DNA of 34,061 bases from Gemmatimonadota bacterium (GTDB lineage: Bacteria > Gemmatimonadota > Gemmatimonadetes > Gemmatimonadales > Gemmatimonadaceae). Location: NCBI GenBank assembly GCA_003134685.1, contig PLCA01000015.1:1-34061 (forward strand), written 5' to 3'. The notes below the pieces were generated by a model that saw only the letters and a list, made by a program, of their open reading frames with translations, was not told the origin of the DNA and made no database searches. Made by a program: the position numbers and the translations under genes. Of the stretch, positions 22,185-27,739 are shown piece after piece. Numbering within the stretch: position 1 is the first letter of the stretch; every line of letters starts with the position of its first letter.

Positions 22185-22218
22185 AAACGGGAGAGGGCTT
22201 TTAGCCCTCTCCCGTTTT
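22185..22218 (+). terminator. Rho-independent terminator after the first barrel gene
   Basis: A perfect 14-bp stem (AAACGGGAGAGGGC with its inverse) and a TTTTA loop are followed by T-rich sequence ending TTTTGCTTGCT. It lies 25 bases past the barrel gene stop. Confidence 0.85.
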
Positions 22219-24616: not shown

Positions 24617-24651
24617 AGCAGGTCGGCTCGAAGTCTGAGCCGCGTAACAGG

Positions 24652-24687
24652 AAAAAGGGGGAGGGCTAATTGCCCTCCCCCTTTTTT
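24652..24687 (+). terminator. Rho-independent terminator after the second barrel gene
   Basis: A perfect 15-bp stem (AAAAAGGGGGAGGGC with its inverse) around TAATT ends in six T. It is similar in design, though not in sequence, to the terminator after copy 1. Confidence 0.88.
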
Positions 24688-24838: not shown

Positions 24839-25372
24839 ATGAGAACACTTCCAGGCCTGGTCCTGCTGACCTCAGCAGCTCTGGCCGCATGCACACGATC
24901 TTCTTCCGAGAGCGCCGGAACGGGCTCTTCGACGGCGTCGGTGTCGAACGGCGTAGCTGCATCTCGCCCCGCGGTTGCGACCGCCGGGGCACCCAAGGGC
25001 GGTGGCTGCCCTCGCACCGGCAAGTGGGCGCTTTGTAGCGTCGAGTGTCGGCTCGCGCAATCGGGGTTCGTGGTCAGGCGCATCAACGGTGATCCTCCGC
25101 GCCGGGCGGGTTTCAGCGTCATCCCCGCTGTCTACACCCTCGGCCGATCGCGCCTCGAAGTCTTCATTTATCCCAGCGAGTCGGCGCTCGCAGCCGATGT
25201 GGCGAAGATCGACACGGTTTCAGCCGCGCCGCGCGGAGCGCCAAACCCGTGGCCTTTCTTTTCACCAACGTTCGTGCGCTCCGCAAATCTCGCCGCGGTT
25301 TTTCTGACTGATAACGCGACGCAGGCTGAGCGATTGACGCTTGCACTCACCGCGGGCGCGCCGCAGCCCTGA
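24839..25372 (+). CDS. Predicted lipoprotein, unknown function
   Basis: The ATG at 24839 gives 177 residues; a TTG three codons earlier is the alternative. Residues 1-18 form a lipoprotein signal ending ALAAC (Cys18). A Ser/Thr/Gly/Ala-rich linker to about residue 50 is followed by a folded part beginning GGGCPRTGKWALCSVECRLAQSGF, which has three Cys that could form disulphides. Then come INGDPPRRAGFSVIPAVYTLGRSRLEVFIYPSESALAADVAKID and a Pro/Trp/Phe segment. No family recognised. Its stop overlaps the start of the kinase gene (TGATG), which implies translational coupling and suggests a joint role, perhaps sensing outside the cell. Confidence 0.75.
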   Translation: MRTLPGLVLLTSAALAACTRSSSESAGTGSSTASVSNGVAASRPAVATAGAPKGGGCPRTGKWALCSVECRLAQSGFVVRRINGDPPRRAGFSVIPAVYTLGRSRLEVFIYPSESALAADVAKIDTVSAAPRGAPNPWPFFSPTFVRSANLAAVFLTDNATQAERLTLALTAGAPQP

Positions 25373-26445
25373 TGGCTGACAAGCATCTCATTGGACCGCT
25401 GCCGGTATCGACACCAGCGGATCTGACGCGCTCGCGCGGTCGCAGCCGGGAGCTTCCGGACGACCTGTTGAGAGAGGCGTCGCTCCGCCTCGGAATCATG
25501 TCGCTGCTCTTCGCCGTGCTCTGGATCGTTGGGGTCGTACTCGGCCATCTCGCCGCGCGCGCGATCTACCCCGATCATCCCCGTTGGATGCAGTTCGATA
25601 TCACGGATGCCATTGCACTGGCGAGCGTGATCGCGTCGCTCGCGCTCTTCGTCTACACCCGAAGGGGAGAGAGAGACCCCAAGTTCGTTCTCGATCTGGG
25701 ACTTTGGTACATGGTTTTTACGGCGTTTGCCCTCGCCGTCATGTTTCATCTTGGAGGAGTACCCGAGGGTGGGGCCATTCTCCCGGAGATTTCCTGGGTC
25801 GGCGCCGTCGTCCTGATGTTCGCCGCCATCGTGCCGAGCACGCCGAAGAAAATGCTGATTGCGGGATTTGTGGCCGCGTCGATGAATCCCATCCTCATGC
25901 TGGTCAGCAGGTCCCGGGGGCTATGGAACTTCGGGCCGGCCCGCCGGGTGCTGATCATGCACTATCCGGACTACATACTCGTGGGCGCGGCTGTGGTCAT
26001 CTCGCACGTCGTGACGAAACTGGGTCAGCAGGTAACGAGGGCGCGCGAGATGGGCAGCTATCAGCTCGGAGAGCTGCTGGGCCGTGGAGGAATGGGAGAG
26101 GTTTACAAGGCTACCCATCGAATGCTCGCTCGCCCCGCGGCGATAAAGCTGATACGAACCGAGATGCTCGGCGCGGTCGACGATGAGGCGGCGAGACTCG
26201 CAGTCACGCGCTTTCGTCGAGAGGCGGAGGCAGCGGCGAACTTGCGATCGCAGCACACCGTCGAGCTGTACGATTTCGGCGTGACGGAGGACGGGACACT
26301 CTATCTCGTGATGGAATTCCTCGACGGCATGGACCTGGAAACGCTGGTCCGGACCAATGGGCCGCTACCCACCGGCCGCGTGATCCACATCCTGCGGCAG
26401 GTGTGCGATTCACTGGAGGAGGCGCACAGTCTCGGGCTCGTGCAC

Positions 26446-26493
26446 GCAACCGAGAGCATAGATGTCAGCGCGCCCATCCACCAGCTCGCCGAG
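26446..26493 (-). other. Inverted kinase segment (subdomain IX region)
   Basis: On the minus strand these 48 bases read LGELVDGRADIYALGC without a break, the stretch that normally follows PEMA in this kinase family. On the plus strand they produce the nonsense tail of the truncated kinase frame. Confidence 0.85.
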
Positions 26494-26583
26494 TCTCTAG
26501 TATAAGCGTCGAAACGTCGCTGGCGACGATTCCTGGTCCAGATGGCGCTCGGCACGCCTGCCTACATGGCGCCTGAAATGGCG

Positions 26584-26680
26584 CTCTTCTTTGACCAGGC
26601 CGAAGTCGAGCACCTTCACGAAGTCGTGACGGGAGTCCGACCCGCCCAAGGTGGATGTTTGCCGGCTTGATATCCCTGTG
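26584..26680 (-). other. Inverted kinase segment (catalytic loop to DFG)
   Basis: On the minus strand, from 26680 downwards, this reads HRDIKPANIHLG, then after a one-base frame change HDFVKVLDFGLVKE. These are the catalytic loop and the magnesium-binding loop missing from the plus-strand frame. The frame change lies between about 26622 and 26650. Confidence 0.85.
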
Positions 26681-27084
26681 TTGCCTACTATCTGATCACG
26701 GGCCAGCTCGTCTTCGAAGCAGAAAAAGCCTTTCAGATGATCGCCAAGCATTTGCAGGCCGCGCCTGTTCCTCCGTCACAGCGAACCGATCGGCCGGTAT
26801 CGCCGGAGCTGGAACGCCTGATACTGAAGTGTCTCGCCAAGGACGCGAAAGACCGTCCGCAGGGCGCGGCGCAACTGGCAGAGGCCCTCGACTGGATTCC
26901 GGCGGACGTCTGGGGCGAAGAGCGGGCGCAACGATGGTGGGAGGCCCACAGTCGGGAGACGCCGATTGCACCGAGGCCCCGGGAAGCCTCCTTGTACGCG
27001 CCAATTGTGACGGATTCGAGAATCCCGGGAGTCTAATTCTCACGAGGCCAGTTCCGTTGCCAGTCACAATCGGGAGGGAGCAGC

Positions 27085-27649
27085 GTGTCCGCCAATCGCC
27101 ATGAGCAACCACCCCGGGATGCCGCCGTCTTGCCGCAGAGCGAGCAGCTCTTCGCGGATGCCTTCGAGAACGCCCCTTACGGGATGGCGCTGATCGCGGT
27201 CGATGGTAGCATTATGCACGCGAACAGGTCGCTCTGTCGGAGAGCCCGTCTGCTTCATCGCCCAGGTCGAGAGCGTTGGACCGCAGAATTACGCCGAGGC
27301 TGACGACAGCCAGGATGCCTGGCTCGCACAATTCGGGGATGCCACGCTTTCTGAGTTTCACGAGATCGGTAACAGTCTCACTCCGCTCATGCTCAATGCA
27401 GAGATGATCATCGAGGAATCGAAGAGGAGCGACATCCGGGAGTCTGCGCACCAGATATTCAAGGCGGCCCGCCGCATTGCATTCGCGTTGCGTCGCCTTC
27501 GCGGCATCCAGAACGTCGAGCCAATGGCGTATCCAGGTGAAAGCCGGATGCTCGATCTGAGATTGGTGGCTCCGCCCACGGCCTACGAGGCAGCCAACCC
27601 GCGGGATGCAACCGCGGCCCGGCCGGGATCGCGCGTGCTCAAGGCGTAG
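27085..27649 (+). pseudogene. PAS-domain signalling gene with an internal deletion and frameshift
   Basis: The GTG at 27085 follows a strong GGGAGGGA site. The first frame reads LFADAFENAPYGMALIAVDGSIMHANRSLC, the beginning of a PAS domain. It then loses frame at about 27237. The sense continues in the next frame as GEPVCFIAQVESV, which is the end of a PAS/PAC domain. About 70 residues of the PAS core are therefore missing. That frame goes on to EFHEIGNSLTPLMLNAEMIIEESKRSDIRESAHQIFKAARRIAFALRRL, a helical pair resembling a histidine kinase dimerisation domain with an H-E-x-x-N box, and stops at 27649 without an ATPase domain. The gene lies 48 bases after the damaged kinase. Confidence 0.7.
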
Positions 27650-27739
27650 CTGGAGCGTGGGCTGGCTTAGCCCAAAATGGCTGGACAGGATTAGGCGCGC
27701 TCGGCAGAATTGAGGTCCCCGCTTACTGGAGCTACTCAA

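Follow-up and report, generated by a model that had tools for sequence, protein, structure and literature searches.

Both micro-inversions and short-range template switches have been described in primates and in other eukaryotes (PMC8755829, PMC7954356). Each of the 59 human–chimpanzee micro-inversions is bordered by inverted repeats no shorter than 3 bp, and the definite primate set consists of inversions of 17–33 bp with inverted repeats of 3–75 bp (PMC8755829). Our search of the literature was limited and proves little; it yielded no bacterial nested micro-inversion of the kind described here. The locus in question is a scrambled Ser/Thr kinase gene that, judging from sequence comparison, is real in the assembly and represents gene loss by an accident that is unusual yet understandable.

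The window, that is, the whole stretch of DNA analyzed, covers bases 1–34,061 of contig 2, which is 36,681 bp long; the genome, that of a Gemmatimonadota soil bacterium, is assembled in 16 contigs and is 98.4% complete. The genome assembly contains the same sequence, and related records carry the labels Gemmatimonadetes or Gemmatimonadaceae. Eight tRNA genes (Gly, Thr, Leu, Asp, Glu, Glu, Trp, and His) cluster at the start of the contig (212–2053), and contig bases 1–88 are 97% identical to the beginning of contig C12, as an assembly break at a repeat would produce.

On the plus strand, the kinase gene runs from 25372 to its natural end at 27036. Its intact upstream part (25372–26445, plus strand), an open frame of 358 codons that ends at the H codon of HRD, encodes a predicted membrane N-terminal region followed by the kinase N-lobe, matches positions 1–121 of the Pfam Pkinase domain (PF00069) with 63 bits, and contains GRGGMGEVYK and AIKLI, the glycine-rich loop and the lysine of a Hanks-type N-lobe. 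The downstream part (26680–27036, plus strand), which runs in an open frame from VAYYLITG to IPGV and the stop codon, is also intact, with 82% nucleotide identity to the closest intact orthologue, that of genome G016. The gene resembles Hanks-type (PknB-like) kinases with a membrane N-terminus in containing all the motifs and in the 81% amino-acid identity of its upstream part to the G016 orthologue, but differs from them in that the catalytic core is scrambled: HRD, DFG, and APE are all present, yet are spread over both strands and several frames instead of following one another in a single frame. Because of this scrambling, we interpret the gene, a single-copy Hanks-type Ser/Thr kinase with a membrane N-terminus and a PknB-like kinase domain, as a pseudogene. 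Its product should end soon after the N-lobe, with HRD and DFG out of frame, and hence should be catalytically dead. A search of the genome detected neither an intact second kinase copy nor a second copy of the scrambled block. A paralogue was ruled out as the source of the pieces, given that matches elsewhere in the genome reach only 19–43 bp.

In the orthologues, the intact order of the core is X (HRD–DFG), M (GTPAYMAPE), and Y (DGRADIYALGC), whereas the order in the window, at 26446–26677, is Y'–M–X'; in other words, the ancestral arrangement pre–X–M–Y–post became pre–Y'–M–X'–post, which has four junctions and lacks none of the original sequence. Y' (26446–26490, minus strand), the inverted GELVDGRADIYALGC segment, and X' (26587–26677, minus strand), the inverted RDIKPANIHLGRVGL / RHDFVKVLDFGLVKE segment, match the orthologue solely as reverse complements. 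The upright segment M (26493–26586, plus strand; VSSISVETSLATIPG / QMALGTPAYMAPEMAL) retains its orientation, with 88% nucleotide identity. Formally, this is one inversion of approximately 228 bp, the middle 93 bp of which are re-inverted, and on these alignments the order in the window requires at least two inversions, one nested in the other.

Each of the two inversions has one clean junction and one with 2 bp added. The clean junctions, pre–Y' (26445/26446) and M–X' (26586/26587), are exact, whereas at Y'–M and X'–post the inverted piece continues 2 bp beyond its breakpoint, after which comes a single shared G. By junction arithmetic, the extra GA at 26491–26492 (J2) fits a 2-bp copy running beyond the M/Y breakpoint, and the extra GT at 26678–26679 (J4) fits one running beyond the upstream breakpoint. 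The flanking inverted repeats, read from the junction sequences, are 2 bp long for the outer inversion and 1 bp for the inner one. The block is 6 bp longer than its ancestral counterpart, which preserves the outer frame. Two single-base insertions, one near 26538 (in M) and the other near 26631 (in X'), are found within the 234-bp block, compared to no apparent indels in the 1,428 bp of the flanking gene, where both frames are open.

These boundaries refine a sequence-only reading of the same DNA, the arrangement of which stands, although the coordinates of the pieces had to be corrected to those given above, with the gene resuming at 26680. That reading also posited three single-base indels, of which two are the insertions just described and the third is the 2-bp junction addition near 26491. 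It further proposed CAC/GTG-type microhomology with about two duplicated bases at the outer junctions; the 2-bp additions are there, but the shared bases amount to just 1–2 bp, and the CAC/GTG match turned out to be one partly copied triplet.

Ten relatives encode clear full-length intact orthologues, with 59–81% amino-acid identity, and in every full-length orthologue examined, HRD, DFG, GTPAYMAPE, and DGRADIYALGC follow one another in a single open frame, the same order that the sequence-only reading had rebuilt. In the alignment to the closest one (G016:C309, L002/L147), which shows 86% nucleotide identity beside the breakpoint, 26444–26493 is inverted, 26493–26586 upright, and 26587–26680 inverted, between two collinear flanks. 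Each piece aligns strongly in one orientation only: Y scores 36 inverted and 11 upright, M 71 upright and 12 inverted, and X 65 inverted and 11 upright, against a best score of 18–22 in 2,000 shuffles. The inverted pieces also match on the opposite strand in most of 13 further orthologue loci, some of which are one record present in two collections. Thus, the segments are reverse complements of orthologous segments in the same place, as in a micro-inversion. The piecewise alignment and the shuffles bear out the nested double inversion proposed for the catalytic core, including the three orientations (first piece inverted, GTPAYMAPE upright, HRD/DFG inverted), and the open, collinear flanks agree with the proposal that the gene is intact on both sides.

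In a comparison of 142 kb of the genome's own distinct sequence with G014, G002, and G016, no other non-palindromic local inversion was detected. Two inverted matches, at 24651–24686 and 22185–22217, were rejected as inversions because they are palindromes (0.91 self-complementary); the former is a strong terminator-like hairpin that appears as an inverted match between relatives.

The two closest relatives have lost the kinase gene. In the sister genome G014, which is 92–97% identical in most aligned stretches, the kinase is cleanly deleted between 25450 and 26954, joining two copies of CGGGAG (G014:C39, L140), and the PAS-like gene that adjoins the kinase is cleanly deleted at the same locus (27094–27671). 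In G002 (about 88% identical), the kinase is deleted between 25493 and ~26979, and the PAS-like gene remains open. The end points of the two kinase deletions differ and neither deletion is nested in the other, so we regard them as separate events. In the window, the PAS-like gene (27086–27649, plus strand), the name of which comes from the motif pattern of its reading frame and not from a Pfam match, is broken: compared to the intact G002 copy, ~209 bp are missing and there is a frame change at ~27241–27245. Given these deletions in G014 and G002 and the broken PAS-like gene in the window, the kinase–PAS pair seems to have been lost repeatedly in this clade.

The inactivation of the kinase in the window appears to be recent. 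Compared to G016, dN/dS is 0.185 in the flanks overall, 0.13 in the kinase domain, and 0.07 in the pieces of the block when these are read in frame in their present form. With amino-acid changes polarised by G011, 23 fall on the window lineage and 44 on that of G016, that is, there is no excess on the window lineage, and the block is no denser in substitutions than the flanks. Non-coding DNA differs from that of the sister genome by 36 indels in 3,125 bp, which translates into 8.2 indels expected in the 1,428 bp of the flanks if the gene had died at the split from G014; none is observed (P about 0.0003). An old pseudogene is ruled out by the dN/dS values and the lack of flank indels. These comparisons indicate purifying selection on the gene until recent times, and because the flanks lack indels where about eight would be expected, we place its death within about the last third of the time since the G014 split (5% level).

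Undecayed flanks would also be expected of an artefact, and favor the view that the block is an assembly or amplification chimera in an organism that has an intact kinase, a source the sequence-only reading considered able to give the same picture. We consider this improbable. The junction overlaps of 1–2 bp are far below assembler overlap lengths and cannot alone join contigs, so the joined sequence must have been present in the reads; furthermore, a reciprocal product with four junctions is an improbable chimera. Real genes nearby contain few frameshifts, with indels relative to G014 mostly located outside real genes; no similar scars are found in the rest of the 142 kb compared; and gene loss at this locus is real, affecting the kinase in the nearest relatives and the neighbouring PAS-like gene.

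The undecayed block, along with the +6 length change that retains the outer frame, could also suggest a programmed, reversible inversion switch, an intragenic inverton that toggles the kinase on and off. This appears extremely unlikely: the flanking inverted repeats span just 1–2 bp, far from recombinase-length repeats, all orthologues are in a single orientation, the gene is deleted in relatives, and the two single-base insertions would keep it frameshifted even after the pieces were flipped back.

We think it probable that a Hanks-type kinase died recently when local break-and-rejoin or template switching turned X–M–Y into Y'–M–X' with nothing lost. Under the first option, three short fragments would have been broken and rejoined by Ku/LigD end joining, with the 2-bp additions representing filled-in staggered ends. 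In the genome, the genes for Ku and for a 944-aa LigD lie near each other on opposite strands (G000:C8:103158–106478), two further LigD-type polymerase domains are encoded, and a search of 19 genomes of the genus found Ku in 17. The junctions in the window are compatible with Ku/LigD joining, for which 0–3 bp matches and filled-in ends would be expected, and this pair is a candidate for the causal role. Under the second option, microhomology-mediated template switching, of the four-point or MMBIR type, a nascent strand would have jumped between nearby templates at 1–2 bp matches. One error-prone episode would then account for the inverted pieces as well as for the short duplications and the indels close by. 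This is a rival of the end-joining half only. It is a plausible explanation, albeit held with less than even confidence. A short local inversion with clustered indels fits the class described previously (PMC7954356, PMC8755829), and both single-base insertions lie within the 234-bp block (P about 0.02 under random placement), but template switching requires four reciprocally paired switches without loss, the flanking inverted repeats are merely 2 and 1 bp long, and the substitution density in the block is not above that in the flanks.

Given that the flanking repeats are only 1–2 bp long and that Ku and LigD are encoded, end joining explains the scar at least as well as replication switching, and the near absence of flanking repeats, along with the filled-in appearance of one of the two junctions of each inversion, favors the joining of staggered breaks. 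A point against end joining is that zero loss across three short fragments is demanding. The two insertions in the block suggest error-prone synthesis, which would be compatible with either route. On balance, we rank break-and-rejoin and template switching about equal, so that replication template switching, raised by the sequence-only reading, is possible but not singled out, since Ku/LigD end joining fits as well.

Both inversions were perhaps made within one episode, as suggested by the shared design of their junctions (one clean, one with 2 bp added). The alternative is two separate, successive micro-inversions, by any mechanism, in an already dispensable gene. The nested pair as the minimum edit and the gene losses at this locus in several relatives are in line with such a course of events, but the absence of any other non-palindromic inversion in the 142 kb makes two in one 228-bp stretch unlikely unless they are linked, and we consider it rather unlikely. 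With one sequence to go on, we tentatively place a single episode ahead of two independent ones, given the rarity of such inversions here and the shared junction design. A more specific version of the single episode, a local shatter-and-rejoin, chromothripsis-like at ~230 bp, in which three fragments of 45–93 bp were rejoined by Ku/LigD in a new order with nothing lost, and in which each inversion left one clean junction and one with 2 bp added, is a speculative possibility that we doubt.

If the junctions are confirmed, this locus would provide a clear, datable bacterial nested reciprocal micro-inversion that is almost free of flanking repeats, and it would offer a way to weigh end joining against template switching as origins of small complex rearrangements in bacteria with Ku/LigD. 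Scars of this kind are readily overlooked by gene callers and aligners, whose output would show just a truncated kinase.

Like bacterial invertons, including intragenic ones (PMC11892184), the rearrangement in the window is an inversion within or beside a bacterial gene, but it has no long inverted repeats and no sign of reversibility, and the gene is frameshifted. With the template-switch clusters of the four-point model, it may share local inverted copying and clustered small changes, and the window shows two block indels, none in the flanks, and no substitution excess; the majority of the patterns in that class create inverted repeats, whereas the window contains two nested reciprocal inversions with nothing lost (PMC7954356). 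Human–chimpanzee micro-inversions are alike in that a short segment is inverted in place as a precise copy with short flanking matches (PMC8755829), but the window case, with inverted repeats of 2 bp (outer) and 1 bp (inner) that fall short of the 3 bp minimum of that set, encompasses 228 bp, a nested 93-bp re-inversion, 2-bp additions, and indels, and is bacterial.
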